Source of the DNA: Longitalea luteola
Lineage (GTDB): Bacteria > Bacteroidota > Bacteroidia > Chitinophagales > Chitinophagaceae
Direction: 5' to 3'
Assembly (NCBI RefSeq): GCF_017356035.1
Contig: NZ_JAFIQX010000017.1
Span: forward strand, 1-64,000
Length of the DNA: 64,000 bases
Shown piece by piece: positions 16,282-37,800 of this stretch. The translations under genes were made by a program, and so were the position numbers. Under the pieces are notes generated by a model that saw nothing but the letters and a program-made list of their open reading frames with translations, was not told the DNA's origin and did not search any database. Every line of letters starts with the position of its first letter. The first letter of the stretch is position 1.

Positions 16282-16722
16282 ATGAAACCAATATTTTTAT
16301 TAGCTGATGATGATATCGATGATAGAGAATTGTTTTGTGAAGCGCTGGGAACGGTTGATCCATCCATAACCTGTTACTGCGCAGACAATGGACGGGTTGC
16401 TTTGCACATGCTTGACAGTAAACAACCGTCAGAATACCCGCACTTGATTTTTCTTGATATCAATATGCCGGTAATGAATGGGTGGGAATGTCTGGTACAA
16501 TTGAAAAGAAGCGAAGCTTACAGGCACATACCCGTTTTCATTTATACGACTTCTTCTCACCAAAGAGAGGCAAATATAGCATTTGACCTGGGAGCAGATT
16601 GTTTTTTTACAAAGCCGGCTGAATACAATGAGCTAAAATCCATACTTAAAATAATCGCGAATAACATAGGGGGGGATTGGGTAAGTGCAATAAGTCATTT
16701 CGATAACATTAAATCGAGATAA
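16282..16722 (+). CDS. Single-domain response regulator in operon with the hybrid kinase
   Basis: 146 residues. Receiver with Asp9-Asp11 acidic cluster, phosphoacceptor Asp59 in LIFLDINMP, Thr89/Thr90 and Lys111 in FFTKPAEY; a short extra C-terminal tail has no recognisable domain. It begins nine bases after the kinase stop and is certainly co-transcribed. It belongs to the Rcp1-like class of receivers that pair with PAS-containing kinases whose last core carries the ASHDLKEP motif, as here. Confidence 0.93.
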   Translation: MKPIFLLADDDIDDRELFCEALGTVDPSITCYCADNGRVALHMLDSKQPSEYPHLIFLDINMPVMNGWECLVQLKRSEAYRHIPVFIYTTSSHQREANIAFDLGADCFFTKPAEYNELKSILKIIANNIGGDWVSAISHFDNIKSR

Positions 16723-29568: not shown

Positions 29569-29664
29569 TGTATGCATTATTGAATACAACGCATAATTAC
29601 ATTATTTACCCTGGTATATGATTTGCAAATCATTCCATGGTTTTTCATAGGATATTGGAATAAA

Positions 29665-29698
29665 GGGGGCTTTATGTCTATAGAGCCCCACTTTTTGT
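29665..29698 (+). terminator. Terminator-like hairpin with loop TATGTCTAT
   Basis: GGGGGCT and AGAGCCCC pair around a loop containing TATGTCTAT and are followed by ACTTTTTG. It lies about 100 bases after the receptor stop and about 100 bases before the next small gene, so it can end the receptor transcript. A hairpin with the same loop lies at 30710-30738 on the other strand. Confidence 0.7.
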
Positions 29699-29799
29699 TT
29701 TAATCTTAAAGGTTATATTGACACATATTTTAATGTATTTTAATAATTCCGATATTATTTTGGAATAAGAATTGAGGGGTTAAACGACAAAAAAGCTTC

Positions 29800-30033
29800 A
29801 TGGAATCCCGGTTTCAAAGTCTTACGGCTGCTCAGCTTAGGACAATTATTATAAATGAAATGAGAAAGTTTGCCCTCGCGTTAGAGTACGGTTCTACCAT
29901 TAGTGATCTTCAGGAGATCAAAGAGCACATCAAGTTACTGTCAGATACGCTTGCCATCAAAGAGAAAGAAGAATATTCAGGATCTGCTGTAGAAATTCCT
30001 CAACAGTCGAAGCAAATGCGGCCGGTTAACTGA
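29800..30033 (+). CDS. Small helical protein, paralogue of the next gene
   Basis: 77 residues. The pattern EMRKFALALEYGSTISDLQE, with IKEHIKLL after it, is helical and aligns with EVRNFLEALQ, then RELIAIRKNAKEIF, in the convergent gene at 30041. No family recognised; it may be a small protein-binding or anti-type regulator. It ends seven bases before the stop of its convergent paralogue and is next to a receiver gene. Confidence 0.6.
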   Translation: MESRFQSLTAAQLRTIIINEMRKFALALEYGSTISDLQEIKEHIKLLSDTLAIKEKEEYSGSAVEIPQQSKQMRPVN

Positions 30034-30040
30034 ACGGAGG

Positions 30041-30229
30041 CTAACCACTCTCGTTATCCGTCAGCTTTGATTTGTTTTTTATTTCATTAAATATTTCTTT
30101 GGCGTTTTTCCTTATAGCGATGAGTTCTCTTGGGGAGGCGTCTTTTTGTAATGCTTCCAAAAAGTTCCTCACTTCCGCAATGTATCTGCGCTCCAGCTCC
30201 TCCAGGTAATTTTTCAAACGTTCATCCAT
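30041..30229 (-). CDS. Small helical protein, paralogue of the previous gene
   Basis: 62 residues from ATG 30229 (an in-frame ATG at 30265 adds 12). The shorter start is preferred because it puts the shared EVRNF motif at residue 19, as in the paralogue (EMRKF at 20). All-helical and charged, no membrane segment. It lies downstream of the receiver gene at 30288 on the same strand with about 58 bases between them, so they probably share a transcript. Function unknown; a regulator partnered with the receiver is inference. Confidence 0.55.
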   Translation of the reverse strand: MDERLKNYLEELERRYIAEVRNFLEALQKDASPRELIAIRKNAKEIFNEIKNKSKLTDNESG

Positions 30230-30287
30230 ACACAATAGCATCTGATCACAAAGAACAGATCGCAATTCCTGTACCCACCTTTTTTCC

Positions 30288-30686
30288 TCAGGGTAGGGTG
30301 GTAGCCAGGATCTCCCGGACGATATTGCGGAATTCGGTCAGCGAGAATGGTTTAACAATATATTTATAAGCGCCTGCTTTTTGCGCCGTATCAATGATTG
30401 ACGGTTCACTGGCTGTAGAAAATATGATCACAGGAATATTGTAAAGATTCAACTCTTTTTTTATGGAGATCAAACAGTTTTGGCCGCTCATTTTAGGCAT
30501 ATTCATATCCATTACTATCAAGCATGGTAATTCGCTGGTCGTTTTTAAAAACTGTAACAATTCCTCGCAGTTTTGAAACCAGGAGAGTTTAATGTTCCTG
30601 TCTATTTCAGTGAGGACTTCTAGGAATAAATAGTGGTCGTCAGGATCGTCTTCCGCCAAACATATATGTTTGATTTCCCGTTTCAT
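30288..30686 (-). CDS. Single-domain response regulator
   Basis: 132 residues from ATG 30686 (in-frame ATG at 30704 adds six). The receiver residues are Asp13-Asp14, phosphoacceptor Asp60 in LIVMDMNMP, Ser/Thr in IIFSTAS, and Lys in YIVKPFS. The sequence HICLAEDDPDDHY is nearly the same as in the receiver at 33437, which lies on the opposite strand, so the two are paralogues. A terminator-like hairpin lies directly upstream (30710-30738). No kinase is adjacent. Confidence 0.9.
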   Translation of the reverse strand: MKREIKHICLAEDDPDDHYLFLEVLTEIDRNIKLSWFQNCEELLQFLKTTSELPCLIVMDMNMPKMSGQNCLISIKKELNLYNIPVIIFSTASEPSIIDTAQKAGAYKYIVKPFSLTEFRNIVREILATTLP

Positions 30687-30709
30687 CCGGTGGAATTGTT
30701 TCATAATAG

Positions 30710-30738
30710 AAAAAGGGCCCCCATAGACATAGGGTCCC
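30710..30738 (-). terminator. Terminator-like hairpin directly upstream of the receiver gene
   Basis: On the minus strand GGGACCC, loop TATGTCTAT, GGGGGCCC, then TTTTT. The stem has a bulge (A opposite GG). The T tract ends 24 bases before the ATG at 30686, so it sits in the leader and could attenuate the receiver; the true gene end upstream already has its own terminator at 30811. Confidence 0.6.
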
Positions 30739-30810
30739 GCTTATCCATTCAATTAAAACTTTGGGTAACAAATGCAAAAGATATTCCATGTGATTGGGAC
30801 GCATTTTCAT

Positions 30811-30831
30811 AAAAAAAGGGGCAGTTGCCCC
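30811..30831 (-). terminator. Terminator of the 124-aa gene
   Basis: GGGGCA (30818-30823) pairs with TGCCCC (30826-30831). On the minus strand it is followed by seven T residues (30817-30811), 60 bases past the stop at 30892. Confidence 0.75.
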
Positions 30832-30891
30832 TTCATTGTTACTTACTTTTACTTGTGCCGGTTTTTGCCAGCTGTTCCTATGTGGAAGGTT

Positions 30892-31266
30892 TCATAATTC
30901 GATACTCATAACCCGATCTTCATTTGTTTGAATAAGCGTTACGCTGCCCTGCAGCAAATTTTTCTTCATCAAACTGAGCACAAAATAGCCTGATGGGTTC
31001 TCAAAATATTCCTTTATTATCCAGGTGCCATTAATGAGTCTGGCGCCAATGAGTAATGTCTTATCCCAATAAACTGCCCGAAAATAATACCGTATGCGTG
31101 CGTCGCCATTTAGTTCAATGATTATAGCCGGTGATGAAATAGTTCGCACCGTTTTGGTATAGTGTTCTGCTGATACATTTATCAGCTCATTTTTCTCATC
31201 TAAAACATGATCTTCAAAAAATAAAAGACTATTCGTACAATCATAAACGTGCAATAGCCGCTCCAT
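30892..31266 (-). CDS. Protein of unknown function, 124-aa family
   Basis: 124 residues, beta-rich, no signal peptide or membrane segment. The core RYYFRAVYWDKTLLIGARL, then TWIIKEYFENPSG, is also present in the truncated copy at 16756-16932, so this is a real family. The region 31309-31341 upstream carries two small adjacent hairpins. It lies ahead of the receiver at 30288 on the same strand but is separated by a terminator. Function unknown. Confidence 0.65.
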   Translation of the reverse strand: MERLLHVYDCTNSLLFFEDHVLDEKNELINVSAEHYTKTVRTISSPAIIIELNGDARIRYYFRAVYWDKTLLIGARLINGTWIIKEYFENPSGYFVLSLMKKNLLQGSVTLIQTNEDRVMSIEL

Positions 31267-31512
31267 AAAAGATGGTATTGTCGGGTGAACAAATGTGTAT
31301 CAGTGAAAACTCTCTATAAGGAGAGTGTGCTAATTCAGCACGGCTTAACCTGATTGGGGCACAGCTTGTGGGACGATCCTTCGGTTTGGAGTTTAAGGAA
31401 ATTTATTATAAGGTAGAAAACTTATGCTACATGAACAAATGATTCTGATCATTAATACGCGGTGCCTGGGTTTAAAATGACACCTGGTGCAGGCCAGGTT
31501 GTTTATAGAAAG
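31267..31512. other. Intergenic, two small tandem hairpins
   Basis: ACTCTC-TATAAG-GAGAGT (31309-31326) is followed immediately by GTGCT-AATTC-AGCAC (31327-31341). Neither has a T tract. They lie about 45-75 bases upstream of the 124-aa gene start on the minus strand and may be in its leader. No gene seen in the rest. Confidence 0.45.
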
Positions 31513-31547
31513 AAGTCCGAAAGCTCTTTACAGAATCTTTCGGACTT
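31513..31547 (-). terminator. Terminator of the sugar dehydrogenase gene
   Basis: AAGTCCGAAAG (31513-31523) pairs perfectly with CTTTCGGACTT (31537-31547) over 13 bases, and on the minus strand is followed by CTTTCT. It begins 24 bases past the stop at 31571. Confidence 0.75.
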
Positions 31548-31570
31548 GTTCACCATTGGACGTATACTCA

Positions 31571-33013
31571 TTAATAACCGGTATTACCGTTATTGCCGCT
31601 GGTAGTATCAGTGCCATTCCCATTTCCCATCTCATGTTTAGCGCTCACTTCAACGAGCTTATATACCTTTCCGGTATTACCTTGCGGCCCGAGCATGGAA
31701 GAAACGGTGAGATATATTTCTCCTTTATTATCCTGCCCGAATCCCCTGAGGTAGTATCCGATATCATCGGGATGGCTCTTTAAACTCACTTCTTCATAAG
31801 GCCATGAATGTCCGGCAGGCGTCGCTGCATATAATTCTCCATTCGGCGTTGTGGGCGTTTGTGAAAATGTGCCGAAGATGTATTTGCCATGCCAGCCATG
31901 AATTGAATGTCCGCGATAAACATGACCGCCAATAACAGTGGTTGCTTTTCCGCCGGCCGGATTTTGCCAGTTGTTCAATTCAATTACCGGATCTATCAGC
32001 GGATTGCCCAGGTTATCAACAGTAGGACAAGCCGGCAACACCTGCAGTGCGTTGGCTGCATTGAAACAATGCCTGCCTTCTTTTACATTCCAACCGTAAT
32101 TACCACCCCTGGTAACTACACTTATTTCTTCCCACAATAACTGACCAGCGTCACCTGCAATTAACTGGTGCGATCCGCCCATGTCGAAGGAGAACCTGTA
32201 TGGGTTACGAAAGCCGAATGCATAAATTTCATCTCTGCCTGCTTTGTTTACGAACGGGTTATCAACCGGGATACCGTATGGGCTTCCTGAGTTTACGTCA
32301 ATACGCAAAATGTTGCCGAATAAATTCGCTTCATTATCCTGCCCGTTGCCACCCCTGTTGGCAGCGTACCAGTCTTCAACATGGCCTACTGCAGTATCAT
32401 TAGCGCCGCCGCCATCGCCAATTGAAATGTACAGGTAGCCATCATGGCCAAAGGCCAGCGTTCCACCATTATGATTGAATTGTGGATCATCCCATTCAAG
32501 CAGCACTTTTTCGGTGCTCAGATCGGCTACTCTTTGTTCACAGTTAGCAGTGAATTCCGATACCCGGCTCAGATTGTTCCAGGGAACGCCAGGCGCCGGC
32601 CCACCGGCACGGGGCGGCAATTGATAATAAACATAAAACCGGCAATTGTTCCGGTAATCCGGGTGAAAAGCCAGTCCTAACAAGCCACGTTCATCAAATG
32701 CAGGATTAAGCGTTACAAGTCTGCTGGAAATATCCATAAAGGGCGTACTGCCCTTATTACCATCATTATCAATTCGCCAGATCTTTCCGATCTGATCAAC
32801 AACATAAAGATTTTGACTGCCGGGAACAGATACCAGCTGGATAGGAGAAACGAATCCTTCTGCTATCAGCTGGATGTCAACTGCTCTGTGCTTGTTCGGA
32901 AGATCTATTTTTTTACAACCCGGCAGTATTGCTACTGTTACAATTGCTATTAAGCATAATGCGTTGAATGCAGGCTTACAATGGCAGAAGTTGTGAGGTA
33001 GTTTAACTTTCAT
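31571..33013 (-). CDS. PQQ-dependent sugar dehydrogenase-type lipoprotein
   Basis: 480 residues. The signal peptide ends in LPGC (Cys about 33), a lipobox. The soluble glucose/sorbosone dehydrogenase propeller follows: LYVVDQIGKIWRI, DERGLLGLAFHPDY, YYQ and SRVSEFT strands, GGTLAFGHDGYLYISIGDGG (conserved catalytic region with His), RNPYRFSFD, and GGNYGWNVKEG. The last 30 residues are a Gly/Asn/Thr-rich tail. Members oxidise aldose sugars with PQQ in the periplasm. A second, shorter member lies at 61839 on the other strand. A PQQ biosynthesis locus is not in this window, so the cofactor source is unknown. Confidence 0.88.
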   Translation of the reverse strand: MKVKLPHNFCHCKPAFNALCLIAIVTVAILPGCKKIDLPNKHRAVDIQLIAEGFVSPIQLVSVPGSQNLYVVDQIGKIWRIDNDGNKGSTPFMDISSRLVTLNPAFDERGLLGLAFHPDYRNNCRFYVYYQLPPRAGGPAPGVPWNNLSRVSEFTANCEQRVADLSTEKVLLEWDDPQFNHNGGTLAFGHDGYLYISIGDGGGANDTAVGHVEDWYAANRGGNGQDNEANLFGNILRIDVNSGSPYGIPVDNPFVNKAGRDEIYAFGFRNPYRFSFDMGGSHQLIAGDAGQLLWEEISVVTRGGNYGWNVKEGRHCFNAANALQVLPACPTVDNLGNPLIDPVIELNNWQNPAGGKATTVIGGHVYRGHSIHGWHGKYIFGTFSQTPTTPNGELYAATPAGHSWPYEEVSLKSHPDDIGYYLRGFGQDNKGEIYLTVSSMLGPQGNTGKVYKLVEVSAKHEMGNGNGTDTTSGNNGNTGY

Positions 33014-33374
33014 AATGAATCAATTTTGGTGATGTAAAAGATGTACTGTCACTAACACGACAAACCGTAGCATTAACCAATGCATGATATTCAATGGTAA
33101 TCCGGAATGGTGTATTTGCTGAAAGCGTTTAAACCCTTACAATCTTCCTAGAGTTCAGAAAAGATGATTCAGGTAGCAGAAAAAAAGGATAAAAATTGAG
33201 CAGAGAATTGTTGATAATAGCAGTACGACAAATTTAATGCAAACGTTGTTCCCAGGGCAAATAATCTCAACCTGATCACACTTCAGGCTGAATGTGCAGC
33301 CGGTTGGTTGTGGCATGTGATTTTATTTATAATGCGGCAAGAGCGTTTTTATGAGTCATAGCATTTATGTCCTG
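33014..33374. other. Intergenic region, no gene seen
   Basis: About 360 bases between divergent genes. No open frame of interest. A TTATAATG near 33330 could be a promoter, and the terminator-like hairpin at 33375-33403 closes the stretch. A short non-coding transcript between the two is possible but unproven. Confidence 0.4.
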
Positions 33375-33403
33375 AGCTCCCGTAGATTTCGGGAGCTTTT
33401 ATT
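33375..33403 (+). terminator. Terminator-like hairpin upstream of the second receiver gene
   Basis: AGCTCCCG (33375-33382) pairs perfectly with CGGGAGCT (33390-33397) and is followed by TTTATT. No plus-strand gene precedes it; the nearest plus-strand gene upstream ends at 30033. It sits 34 bases before the receiver ATG (33437), so attenuation or the end of a small RNA are the options. Confidence 0.65.
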
Positions 33404-33436
33404 ATGTTATGGTGCAAAAGCAAACGTAACCTGTCT

Positions 33437-33841
33437 ATGAAACGAACAATTAAACATATCTGTTTGGCCGAGGATGACCCCGATGATTTTTATATTTTTT
33501 CCAACCTGCTGCATGAAGTAGACAGTTCAGTGAAACTCACCTGGTTTCAAACCTGCGAAGATCTGCTCCGGTATTTAAAGAATGGCAGCGATCTGCCATG
33601 CCTGATCGTTCTGGACATGAATATGCCAAAAATGGATGGTCAAACCTGTTTGGTAACGCTCAAAAAGGAAATAACACTACGCCATATCCCGGTCATTATA
33701 CTTTCTACAGCGTTTAAGCCTGGCGCCATTGACCTGGCTATCGAAGCCGGCGCTAATAAATATTATCAGAAACCATATTCGCCAAAAGAGTTCAAAACGA
33801 TCATAAGCGAAATACTTGCGATGCCGGTTGCCGAACAATGA
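33437..33841 (+). CDS. Single-domain response regulator
   Basis: 134 residues from ATG 33437 (MKRTIKHICLAEDD); the open frame from 33404 adds 11 residues that overlap the leader. Receiver residues are Asp13-Asp14, phosphoacceptor Asp60 in LIVLDMNMP, and Lys in YYQKPYS. It is a paralogue of the receiver at 30288 (identical KHICLAEDDPDD start and LDMNMPKM phrase region). No kinase adjacent. Confidence 0.9.
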   Translation: MKRTIKHICLAEDDPDDFYIFSNLLHEVDSSVKLTWFQTCEDLLRYLKNGSDLPCLIVLDMNMPKMDGQTCLVTLKKEITLRHIPVIILSTAFKPGAIDLAIEAGANKYYQKPYSPKEFKTIISEILAMPVAEQ

Positions 33842-34971: not shown

Positions 34972-35141
34972 TCAACAGCCTCATTATCCGCGAGCTTTTT
35001 TTGTTTTTACACTTCGGGCCATTGCTTTATTTCTCTTCTTTTATAACAACGGTCATCAGTAACAGCTGGTAACACAAAAATATTTGCCTTGTACTGTTTT
35101 ATTTTGGGTAGTATATTCGCCGATGTACTCAAAAGATGCAC

Positions 35142-36497
35142 ATGTCATTCACTACAGACAAACAAACCCTGGAAGACCTGAACATTTTCGGTAAACATGG
35201 CGGAGATTCCATTTACAACATCTTCAACCGCTGCGTTACAAGAGGCGGGGCGGCGGTTCTGGCGGAATTGTTCCGGTATCCCCTTGCTGATTTTGAAGCT
35301 ATTAACAAACGCAGTGGAATTATACAATCGTTTGCGTTAGCGGGAACTTCGTTCCCTTTTAAAGGCGCCGACTTCGATGCGGTTGAATCTTATCTTGCTA
35401 ACACCGATGAGCGCTCCAAACTAACTGTGCAGGAAAATACGGTGGCCCGCAAGCTCACGAACATGATCGCAATGGACATTGAGACCCAGCAGATCTATAA
35501 GGGTGTTGAAGCCCTCGTGGCGCTGATGAAGAAAACGCAGGAATTGATGGAAGAGCTGAATGAGAATAAATTTTACAAACAGGAGAATGAGGAAATACGA
35601 ACCATTCTTAACAACCCCGCTTTCACTGAAATGAATCAAAGCAGGGGAAAGCTTTCACCCACACAAATAGCAGACTTTGATGTGATGCTGCGTTTCCGGT
35701 ACCGGACCCTGGTTGAAAAGCTGTTGCAGCATATCTTTCACCTCGACGTATACCTGGCGATCGCAAAAGTGGCCAATGAAAGAAAGTTTGTTTTTCCGAA
35801 AGCCCTGCCCGCCGGCCAGCCTGATCTGCTGAAGCTGGAAGGAGTGTACCATCCCCAGGTAAAAAACGCAGTACCGAACAATATTCATGTTACCACAGAT
35901 AACAATGTTATTTTCCTTACCGGCGCCAATATGGCCGGTAAATCAACTTTCATGAAATCGCTTAGCATTGCGATGTTCCTGGCGCATATGGGTTTTCCCG
36001 TTGCAGCACAGCAAATGGAATTTGCCGTGCTCGATGGTGTTTATACCACTATCAATTTACCCGATAACCTGGGCATGGGCGCCAGCCACTTTTACGCAGA
36101 AGTGTTGCGCGTAAAGAAAATGGCTGAAGAACTGCAACTGAAGAAAGGCCTCTTTATTGTTTTCGATGAACTGTTTCGCGGAACCAATGTGAAAGATGCT
36201 TATGAGGCTACGATTGCCATTACTTCGGCCTTCGCAAAGAAAAGAAAGAGCATTTTCCTGATCTCCACACATATTATCGAAGCGGGGGATGTGCTGAAAG
36301 AAAAGTGCAGCAATATCAATTTCGTTTACCTGCCCACGCGCATGAACGGCCATCAACCTGTATATACCTATACATTGGAACAGGGGATTACCGGCGACCG
36401 GCACGGCATGGTGATCATCAACAATGAAAAAATACTGGAGATCCTGCAAAACGGAAAAAAGCAATTACGAAAAACTACTGCAAACTATGGGATTTAA
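35142..36497 (+). CDS. MutS-like ATPase, first of a tandem pair
   Basis: 451 residues from ATG 35142 (MSFTTDKQTLEDL); ATG 35136 adds two. It carries the MutS core (domain III) helices and the C-terminal ABC-type ATPase: Walker A GANMAGKST near 261-269, Walker B and signature in FIVFDELFRGTN, and the switch STHIIEAGD. The N-terminal mismatch-binding domain (with the Phe-x-Glu motif) and connector of true MutS are absent, and length is about half. It is therefore a MutS-related ATPase of unknown target, cytoplasmic. The last codons overlap the start of the second copy by 11 bases. Confidence 0.88.
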   Translation: MSFTTDKQTLEDLNIFGKHGGDSIYNIFNRCVTRGGAAVLAELFRYPLADFEAINKRSGIIQSFALAGTSFPFKGADFDAVESYLANTDERSKLTVQENTVARKLTNMIAMDIETQQIYKGVEALVALMKKTQELMEELNENKFYKQENEEIRTILNNPAFTEMNQSRGKLSPTQIADFDVMLRFRYRTLVEKLLQHIFHLDVYLAIAKVANERKFVFPKALPAGQPDLLKLEGVYHPQVKNAVPNNIHVTTDNNVIFLTGANMAGKSTFMKSLSIAMFLAHMGFPVAAQQMEFAVLDGVYTTINLPDNLGMGASHFYAEVLRVKKMAEELQLKKGLFIVFDELFRGTNVKDAYEATIAITSAFAKKRKSIFLISTHIIEAGDVLKEKCSNINFVYLPTRMNGHQPVYTYTLEQGITGDRHGMVIINNEKILEILQNGKKQLRKTTANYGI

Positions 36498-37800
36498 AAC
36501 TGATAAGCAAACACTGGACGATCTGAATATTACCGGCAGGTTTAAAGCACAATCTGTCTTCAGTCTTTTTAATGACACGCAAACGGGCGGTGGTGAAAAG
36601 CTGCTGGAAGGTATGTTCCAGCAGCCGCTGACGGATGCTGCTGCTATAAACAACCGCAGTGATGTGTTTAACTATTTTCACAACAAGCAGCTGTCTTTTC
36701 CTTTCAATCCGTCAACCATCCAGGCAGCAGAAACATACCTGGGTGAAGAAACCGGCAGTTCTTACCTGCTAGCGGCGGGGGCGCATTTACGCAGGAAGTT
36801 CCTGCAAATGGCCATGAAAGACGAACAGTATGGCCAGTTGCAGAGCGGCCTGTTGGCGACCATCGATATGTTGAAGGCTTTGCAGCAGTTCCTGCCATTG
36901 ATGGAAGGCTGTCCTGCCACCGGACTGTTTGAAACGGTTGCCGTCACTTTCAAAGGTGATAAGATGAAATGGCTGCAGGAGGTAGGGGTTGATCAACCGC
37001 TTACGCTCTTACAGCTGGCGCGGTATGACCATCTTGTGCGGCATGTACTGCGCAATGAAATGGAAGGCATACTCCGGTTTATTTATCATCTCGACGTTTA
37101 TATCGCGGTAAGCAATGTGGCCCGCGAGCGGAATTTTTTGTATGCCCGGGCCCTTCCAAAGGATCAGCATATCTTTCAGACGACTGCATTACACCATCCG
37201 GCGCTGAAGAACGGGGTGGCCAATCCGCTTCACCTGCACGAGGACCGGAATGTGCTGTTCCTGACCGGCGCCAATATGGCCGGCAAATCTACATTGATGA
37301 AGTCGCTTGGTATAGCCGTGTACCTGGCTCATATGGGATTTCCTGTTGCTGCCAGGGATCTGGTGTTTTCGGTCAGGGACGGGCTTTATACGTCGATCAA
37401 TGTATCAGATAATCTAAACCTCGGGTATAGCCATTTTTATGCAGAAGTGCTGCGGGTGAAGAAGGTAGCCGAGCAAGTGGCGGAAGGCAATGACCTGGTG
37501 GTCATCTTCGACGAACTTTTTAAGGGCACCAATGTGAAAGATGCCTATGATGCAACGCTGGCTGTTACAAAAGAATTTGCTGCCTATCGCAATAGCTTTT
37601 TTGTCATTTCAACACATATTATTGAAGTGGGCGCTGCGCTTCAACAGGAATGTGACAACCTGCAATTTTCTTATCTCCCCACCATTATGGAAGGCAGCGT
37701 GCCCAGATACCCGTATACACTTACGGCAGGCATTACGAATGACCGCCATGGTATGATCATCATTGAAAATGAAAGGATCCTCGAAATGATACAAGAATAA
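36487..37800 (+). CDS. MutS-like ATPase, second of a tandem pair
   Basis: 437 residues from ATG 36487 (MGFKTDKQTLDDL), whose ATGGGATTTAA overlaps the upstream stop, so translation is coupled. The open frame extends to 36424 but that part lies inside the upstream gene. Walker A GANMAGKST is again at about 261-269, with VVIFDELFKGTN and STHIIEVG. Its N-terminal halves match the first copy closely (TDKQTL-DLNI). The two probably form a heterodimer; that is inference from the pairing. Confidence 0.88.
   Translation: MGFKTDKQTLDDLNITGRFKAQSVFSLFNDTQTGGGEKLLEGMFQQPLTDAAAINNRSDVFNYFHNKQLSFPFNPSTIQAAETYLGEETGSSYLLAAGAHLRRKFLQMAMKDEQYGQLQSGLLATIDMLKALQQFLPLMEGCPATGLFETVAVTFKGDKMKWLQEVGVDQPLTLLQLARYDHLVRHVLRNEMEGILRFIYHLDVYIAVSNVARERNFLYARALPKDQHIFQTTALHHPALKNGVANPLHLHEDRNVLFLTGANMAGKSTLMKSLGIAVYLAHMGFPVAARDLVFSVRDGLYTSINVSDNLNLGYSHFYAEVLRVKKVAEQVAEGNDLVVIFDELFKGTNVKDAYDATLAVTKEFAAYRNSFFVISTHIIEVGAALQQECDNLQFSYLPTIMEGSVPRYPYTLTAGITNDRHGMIIIENERILEMIQE

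Follow-up and report, generated by a model that had tools for sequence, protein, structure and literature searches.

A predicted FopS-like small RNA and its diverged copy at a receiver gene island of Longitalea luteola

FopS-like RNA units of the island

We analysed 64,000 nucleotides (nt) of Longitalea luteola (contig NZ_JAFIQX010000017.1, positions 1 to 64,000; hereafter the window), in which an island between 29,665 and 33,841 carries two single-domain receiver genes, R1 and R2, and the small orphan proteins P77, P74 and P124. We consider it likely that the island encodes a small RNA (sRNA) at 29639-29699 that is driven by sigma-54 and resembles FopS, and that a diverged copy of this RNA leads R1. 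The features that bear on this proposal are as follows.

29612-29627, plus strand: sigma-54-like promoter TGGTATATGATTTGCA (GG-N10-GC), with its GC 12 nt ahead of the RNA start
29639-29699, plus strand: putative FopS-like small RNA gene, matched by covariance model R3, with 5' seed GGTTTTTCATAGGATATTGG, terminator hairpin at 29666-29689 and T tract
30288-30704, minus strand: R1, single-domain receiver (Pfam Response_reg, E 1.7e-17)
30705-30761, minus strand: putative diverged FopS-like unit, the R1 leader, with an altered, shortened seed, hairpin loop TATGTCTAT and T tract
30773-30788, minus strand: sigma-54-like promoter TGGAATATCTTTTGCA of the R1 leader
33374-33398, plus strand: third hairpin, before R2, not FopS-like

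A preliminary description of this DNA had reported three hairpins with T tracts, and all three are present (29666-29689 plus, 30734-30719 minus and 33374-33398 plus). It had also pointed to a loop common to the first two, which as a 9-mer by itself is not significant, since it occurs twice in the window and 9 of 100 shuffles equal that. The sharing of the entire unit around the loop is significant, however, and we rejected chance as the origin of the common loop. The evidence on the unit comes from covariance model R3 (models R1 to R3 are distinct from the receivers of the same names), which was built from 18 copies without window sequence or receiver leaders and finds both units, with scores of 70.3 bits (E 2.6e-14) for 29639-29699 and 27.8 bits (E 1.5e-4) for the R1 leader; the next match in the window scores 14.2 bits. 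Further matches of this model, all at 28-36 bits, are the leaders of R3 (C4:100239, the third close receiver in this genome), of R1 and R3 in Longitalea arenae, and of the G008 receiver. The region upstream of R1, its L. arenae counterpart and that of R3 have in common a block of TGG-N10-GC, about 35 bases, the hairpin loop TATGTCTAT and a T tract, and these elements follow one another in the same way in the block ahead of P77 (29612-29698). Each of the two window units is about 60 nt long and starts about 12 nt past its sigma-54-like site (TGG-N10-GC). These sites had been overlooked in the preliminary description, as had an ordinary terminator at 30834-30815. Based on this organization, the hairpins at 29665-29698 and 30710-30738 do not look like ordinary gene ends; they look like the ends of FopS-like units.

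The third hairpin had been regarded as akin to the other two, and we rejected this grouping because its sequence is unrelated and it is absent from the matches of covariance model R3. The layout in relatives suggests that it is perhaps the relic of a terminator of a lost gene for P68, a small protein found ahead of the receiver. The earlier proposal of a small-RNA-linked system consequently fits two of the hairpins, which belong to a conserved multicopy family with its own promoter-like boxes, and fails for the third.

Spread and conservation of the RNA family

With a covariance model from seven units (R1), additional copies turned up in every one of the 10 genomes of the genus, each of which carries 10-16 copies. 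Most of the additional copies are without a sigma-54-like site and have the near-invariant 5' end GGTTTTTCATAGGATATTGGATT. The anatomy of the family is a near-invariant 5' end GGUUUUUCAUAGGAUAUUGGAUU, unpaired by prediction, followed by a terminator. The hairpin covaries, with 93% of cells paired and 13 double changes, a number reached by 0 of 500 shuffles, while three of the nine pairs never vary.

To follow the RNA alone we used covariance model R2, with which 99 relatives were searched at E<=0.05. Matches were obtained in 51, including 48 of the 60 Chitinophagaceae (E below 1e-4 in 43); of 39 genomes from the rest of the order, 3 matched, all weakly (E 0.003-0.005). In a sample of the phylum, 11 of 395 genomes matched at E<=1e-4, every one of them Chitinophagaceae, with three more Chitinophagaceae listed without a match and the other 364 matchless genomes not itemised. 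At the 20 best loci in other genera, which were picked by score and for which open reading frames (ORFs) were assigned by the longest-ORF rule, the first 23 bases were identical and the next downstream ORF was convergent in all 20. Of nine copies examined in the L. luteola genome, four face a convergent gene, and neighbors of the copies in this genome include UvrC, RecA and a CBM48/alpha-amylase protein (Pfam). Taken together, the units look like an unannotated, many-copy small-RNA family of Chitinophagaceae, the existence and conservation of which can be read from the sequences themselves. Our searches of open-licence PMC papers turned up no account of the family.

Tandem copies of the RNA, about 190-210 nt apart, occur in 10 of the 10 genomes of the genus (G000:C22:335269-335519 and counterparts), with the CBM48/alpha-amylase neighbor of these copies tested in the L. 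luteola genome only.

Relationship to FopS

FopS (RF04319) comprises paralogous sRNAs of Bacteroides thetaiotaomicron, present in 12-15 copies, that bind SusC-type mRNAs close to the start codon and repress their translation (PMC11697453). Binding of the RRM protein RbpB is a further mark of FopS. The Chitinophagaceae family resembles FopS in its copy number (10-16 per genome), in its conserved 5' seed, predicted to be single-stranded and followed by a Rho-independent terminator, and in the housekeeping-type promoter box of most copies; the resemblance may extend to the seed sequence itself (GUUUUUCAU.G..UAUURGAUUU), which is complementary to AUGAAAAA starts. It differs in that its seed, while similar, carries a 2-nt insertion and is without the AAGGUUAAUAA segment, in its conserved hairpin loop, and in that some copies stand under sigma-54-like sites at receiver islands and some form the leaders of receiver genes. 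The preliminary description, which knew of no such system, was half right, as the RNA resembles one that has been described.

Alignments of FopS with family copies run end to end and in register. FopS was the top-scoring Rfam family for three of four copies (the window unit with 16.3, L138 with 19.9 and one L140 copy with 22.7 bits), with MicC equal to FopS for L138 in one search and lower in another. For three FopS genes, 0, 3 and 14 of 5000 dinucleotide shuffles did as well as the seed alignment GTTTTTCATAG--TATTRGATTT. In the reverse direction, covariance model R2 recovered three of the five FopS loci that exceed the RF04319 cut-off, at E 0.02-0.025.

Other scores count against a relationship with FopS. 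RF04319 scored the four copies at 15.3-22.7 bits (E 0.2-5.7), well below its gathering cut-off of 56, and for the window unit some families rank ahead of FopS by E-value. The other L140 copy was matched better by MicC (26.8 bits), frnS, rseX and SorY than by FopS (15.3 bits), and two FopS loci were missed by covariance model R2 (L231, E 0.11; L229, E 1.1). Rfam gave no match in the window at gathering level, and FopS was absent from the matches of a wider Rfam search with seven loci (E<=5). In the phylum sample, RF04319 exceeded its cut-off in 5 of 395 genomes, all in two families other than Chitinophagaceae, and gave sub-threshold matches (E<=1) in 115 of 395.

Another reading is that the likeness to FopS is convergent, with both seeds having independently become complementary to the common start AUGAAAAA. 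The fact that the FopS and family models barely recognize each other speaks for such an origin, as do sub-threshold FopS-model matches in the phylum, some of which resemble, by eye, the antisense of gene starts. The likeness extends beyond UUUUUCAU, however (GUUUUUCAUAG--UAUURGAUUU), with the same anatomy and register, and L244 of the L. luteola genome and L235 of G067 combine parts of both seeds, having TTTTCATAGGATA in common with the Chitinophagaceae family and, in part, GGTTTAATGGTTAAT with FopS. We regard convergence as a credible explanation, though one that we would not favor over a FopS-like family.

L244 is distinct from the family and is the best RF04319 match in the L. luteola genome (31.1 bits). 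Together with L235 and L234, which come from two other Chitinophagaceae genomes, it represents a FopS-like element, TTTTCATAGGATAAGGTTTAA-GGTTA followed by a hairpin, that RF04319 scores at 31-36 bits (L244 at G000:C39:221337-221417). Among L238, L246 and other sub-threshold RF04319 matches, some from other families resemble by eye the antisense of gene starts, ATGAAAAA, as would be expected if FopS mimics a common start region.

Two promoter types

The promoters were compared in 47 distinct units listed by regular expression, the starts of receiver-type units being fixed by the search string and those of the others by the family 5' end. In ten of these units GG-N10-G[CT] lies 12-14 nt before the start (12 nt in eight, 13 and 14 nt once each). 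Eight of the ten are within 1.6 kilobases (kb) of R-family, P77, P68 or P124 genes; of the other two, L120 is 153 nt from another orphan receiver and L143 is near none. The 37 units without the site include five within 2.5 kb of a generic receiver and none close to an R-family, P77, P68, P74 or P124 gene. The difference between 8 of 10 and 0 of 37 gives a Fisher value of 1.4e-7, in which orthologous rows are not independent and flank lengths differ. When near-duplicates were removed from the 37, the 22 remaining upstream regions had a TAnTTTnA trend at -12 to -5 (T in 20, A in 18, TTT in 19-20), which resembles the Bacteroidota housekeeping promoter box TAnnTTTG. Both the promoter-like boxes at fixed spacing and the clustering of sigma-54-type copies at receiver islands are features of the sequences, and the receiver-island copies appear to be switched on by a different polymerase partner than most copies. 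In the FopS study, housekeeping promoters are given for the 14 copies, and a split of paralogous sRNAs among sigma factors is mentioned as a general possibility (PMC11697453).

Further sigma-54-like sites are found beside the protein genes of the island.

29761-29776, plus strand: degenerate sigma-54-like site (GG-N10-GA) before P77; homologous copies are mostly GG-N10-GC
30262-30275, minus strand: sigma-54-like site GGTACAGGAATTGC before P74
33845-33858, plus strand: sigma-54-like site right after the R2 stop, matching the place of the P74 promoter after R1; no P74 was seen behind it

GG-N8-TTGC occurs within 120 nt of four of nine island genes in the L. luteola genome (R1, R3, the C4 P77 and P74), compared with 21 of 626 background genes (Fisher 2.1e-4), where island gene starts were set by homology and background starts by longest ORF. 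R2, the window P77, the C1 P74, P68 and P124 have no GG-N8-TTGC within this distance, and neither does any of 16 other receivers. When TTGT was also counted, the values were 6 of 9 and 47 of 626 (Fisher 1.8e-5). P124 was tried as a member of the sigma-54 set and rejected, as no site was found. For the pattern GGNAN6TTGC, 5 of the 13 sites in the window fall inside the 4.2-kb island, the window total of 13 being about the shuffle level of 12.3.

Two rpoN genes are present in all 10 genomes of the genus. Next to the second rpoN of L. luteola are a REC-Sigma54_activat-HTH_8 regulator and histidine kinases that contain PAS or CHASE3 domains. The Qrr sRNAs of Vibrio are likewise multicopy, have sigma-54 promoters and are tied to phosphorelay signalling; in the family described here, a minority of copies is of the sigma-54 type.

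Leader or free-standing RNA

The RNA unit occurs both with and without a receiver gene. In G004 a unit has an outer-membrane protein gene on one side and a convergent PAP2 gene on the other. G001 has retained an R1-type unit without a receiver, the next gene being a convergent ORF of 86 amino acids (aa), and P77 with its own GG-N10-GC site is found about 500 nt further on. The preliminary description had named homologous loci lacking the hairpins as evidence against its proposal, and this applies in some cases: no leader hairpin accompanies the sigma-54-like site of the R homologues in G004, G005 and G009, while the hairpin and T tract are kept in the leaders of the L. arenae R1 and both R3. 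The hairpin is thus not needed by R receivers as a class and, given also the G001 unit without a receiver, the three elements (promoter, RNA unit, receiver) can be separated from one another. For the R1 and R3 leaders, the best interpretation is that small-RNA units have diverged ahead of a receiver gene. Leader sRNAs and attenuators born of a terminator, in which a short terminated RNA precedes an ORF under one promoter, are a known arrangement; what differs here is the kind of leader, a diverged copy from a family of free-standing RNAs.

An alternative is that the R1-type hairpins are cis-acting attenuators and not sRNAs, with a leader peptide or ligand choosing between termination and readthrough. 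The distance from the hairpin and T tract to the R1 ATG is 24 nt, which leaves scant space for a second promoter, and the leader contains a 15-codon ORF whose TGA overlaps the receiver ATG; because of this ORF, attenuation is a possibility. In-frame ORFs with similar first residues are present in the L. arenae R1, both R3 and G001 units. Conservation of the RNA could account for these ORFs without selection for a peptide, however, and by eye an ATG is absent from the unit of the G008 leader, which also lacks a clean T tract. Also against attenuation are the G001 arrangement, where an R1-type unit and its sigma-54-like site have no receiver behind them, and the further R genes that lack a hairpin despite the promoter-like site. 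Attenuation also leaves 29639-29699 unexplained. We think it rather unlikely as a substitute for the sRNA, although a role of the RNA as a leader whose termination limits the receiver is possible at R1 and its paralogue R3.

Gene-end terminators and repeats

Terminator-like sites are common in the region (20 in 10 kb, compared with a mean of 10.6 in shuffles), and 29665 is about 100 nt past the stop of a TonB-receptor gene on the same strand. It could therefore be argued that 29665-29698 simply ends this gene and that 30710-30738 is a second terminator after P124. This is improbable based on the fact that conservation is not confined to the hairpin, extending to the 25 nt ahead of it and to a promoter box whose distance is fixed, and that copies lie beside unrelated genes and face convergent genes. 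Moreover, the terminator at 30834-30815 already closes P124, whose gene end is therefore not the hairpin at 30710-30738. The hairpin at 29665-29698 may nonetheless double as the TonB gene terminator. Least probable of all is that the units are REP-like or other mobile repeats, as their many near-identical copies per genome and the position of L144 beside transposase-like ORFs (by eye) might suggest, since positions recur across genera (by eye, the convergent neighbor is UvrC-like at at least 13 of 20 loci and RecA-like at two, with Pfam tests of these neighbors made in the L. luteola genome only) and two upstream boxes, unrelated to each other, are each found at fixed spacing from the same core.

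Predicted targets

Pairing of the seed was tested on 688 genes (about 0.96 megabases of the L. luteola genome), 292 of which were secreted-like by a crude rule. With the 292 secreted-like starts the mean energy was -10.58 kcal/mol compared with -8.88 (standard deviation 0.62) for full shuffles, 0 of 60 of which were as strong. A genome-wide search for near-exact complements returned 26 matches, eight of which are the family's own sRNA genes.

Several controls weaken the case for specific targets. When UUUUUCAU was kept and the rest of the seed shuffled, 8 of 60 shuffles were as strong on secreted-like starts. The seed also pairs well inside genes, where 8 of 60 full shuffles were as strong, and the difference between start and internal pairing was equalled by 4 of the 60 full shuffles and, when UUUUUCAU was retained, by 50 of 60. 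Near-exact matches outside the family numbered 18, compared with 11 for the reversed pattern, and one of these 18 (L213) begins a long ORF. The test modestly backs a general anti-AUGAAAAA role alone.

Proposed mechanism and significance

In the mechanism that we propose, 29665-29698 would be the intrinsic terminator of a small RNA of about 60 nt (29639-29699) transcribed from a sigma-54-type promoter, and this RNA would be one member of a FopS-like family with many copies throughout the Chitinophagaceae. Start-codon regions are the most likely pairing sites of its conserved 5' end, predicted to be unpaired (UUUUUCAU..., complementary to ..AUGAAAAA), the targets presumably being mRNAs of secreted and outer-membrane proteins, whose translation would be lowered as by FopS. 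The hairpin before R1 would be the terminator of a diverged copy, with one sigma-54-type promoter common to RNA and receiver; most R1-leader transcripts would end as a short RNA and readthrough would yield the receiver mRNA. Transcription, sigma-54 dependence, targets and readthrough are the steps that we infer.

Four further observations sit uneasily with this mechanism. A same-strand gene lies 134-433 nt downstream in 5 of the 9 copies examined in the L. luteola genome, the seeds of R1-type units have lost their anti-start-codon part, the window P77 and R2 have no intact sigma-54-like site, and the G001 unit was missed by covariance model R3.

A broader, tentative scheme, which we advance with distinctly less confidence than the sRNA itself, is that a phosphorelay acts on the second RpoN (RpoN2) and the adjacent NtrC-type activator, and that these would switch on, at receiver islands, new receivers together with a private member of the FopS-like family. 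Copies of the sRNA captured as leaders of receiver genes would then let one promoter yield both products, the terminator setting the ratio of sRNA to receiver. If so, one signal would rewire two-component signalling and, via the sRNA, the translation of surface proteins. The sRNA proposal, if true, would extend RNAs of the FopS type, which pair with start codons, from Bacteroidaceae to Chitinophagaceae, and would provide a case of paralogous sRNAs divided between sigma factors. It would also link orphan receivers that have no output domain with a class of promoter and with partner genes.

Receivers and small proteins of the island

The remaining features of the island are listed below.

29800-30033, plus strand: P77, 77-aa orphan, probably helical
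30041-30229 (from ATG; to 30265 from TTG), minus strand: P74, small orphan, 62 aa from the ATG, downstream of R1
30815-30834, minus strand: ordinary terminator closing P124
30892-31266, minus strand: P124, 124-aa orphan
33437-33841, plus strand: R2, single-domain receiver (Pfam Response_reg, E 2.1e-15), with a longer ORF from 33404

Several assignments of the preliminary description hold here. R1 and R2 are paralogous one-domain receivers, with Response_reg matches in both and 62-63% identity, and the 124-aa orphan is present as an ORF. The closest named relative of R1 is in L. arenae, also a member of the Chitinophagaceae (84% identical), and R3 is 58% identical. P77, P74 and P124 had no Pfam match at E<=0.001, and nothing usable was obtained for P77, P74, P68 and P124 in NCBIfam or Pfam. 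P77 and P74, which had been called paralogous helical proteins, can at best be called distantly related (hhalign probability 81%, E 1.3e-5). We do not claim kinship of P77 with P68 (probability 24%, E 8e-4), and a comparison of P74 with P68 found no relation. A match of P77 to an engineered uteroglobin in the PDB was rejected as a duplicated weak match (E about 0.01 per copy). The statement that each gene of the island stands behind a hairpin was not borne out, as none was found before P74 and P124 is preceded by a different one.

Relatives of P77 were found in 9 of the 10 genomes of the genus and in 0 of 49 other relatives, while P68, for which the search was confined to the genus, is in all 10. 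P77, an R receiver and P68 form a single cluster in G004, G005 and G008, and L. arenae has a P74 relative at the equivalent place. P124 relatives occur in 8 of 59 genomes, every one within the genus, and a receiver-like ORF is present at 10 of 16 P124 loci (a count that includes one 62-aa fragment and one receiver inside a 422-aa ORF), compared with 3.2% of random 3.3-kb windows of the L. luteola genome (binomial 6e-12). That P77, P74, P68 and P124 bind or dephosphorylate receivers is a guess.

A hairpin with a T run lies before the P124 ATG (31304-31328, minus strand) and before the P124 relatives L045, L031, L032 and L033. Its exact repeat is clearest in the window, L045 and L031, and it is followed by a box like TATACATATTT (by eye); these hairpins differ from the FopS-like ones. 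A broken or short relative of P124 (16777-16923, minus strand) adjoins a one-domain receiver (16282-16722, plus strand), which sits behind a 1642-aa ORF resembling a hybrid kinase. A GGAACAACGTTTGC site at 33239-33252 (minus strand), in the intergenic region before R2, is directed at a GSDH gene. Beyond the island, 35136-37800 contains neighboring genes for MutS-like ATPases of 453 and 458 aa, named by eye from their translations.

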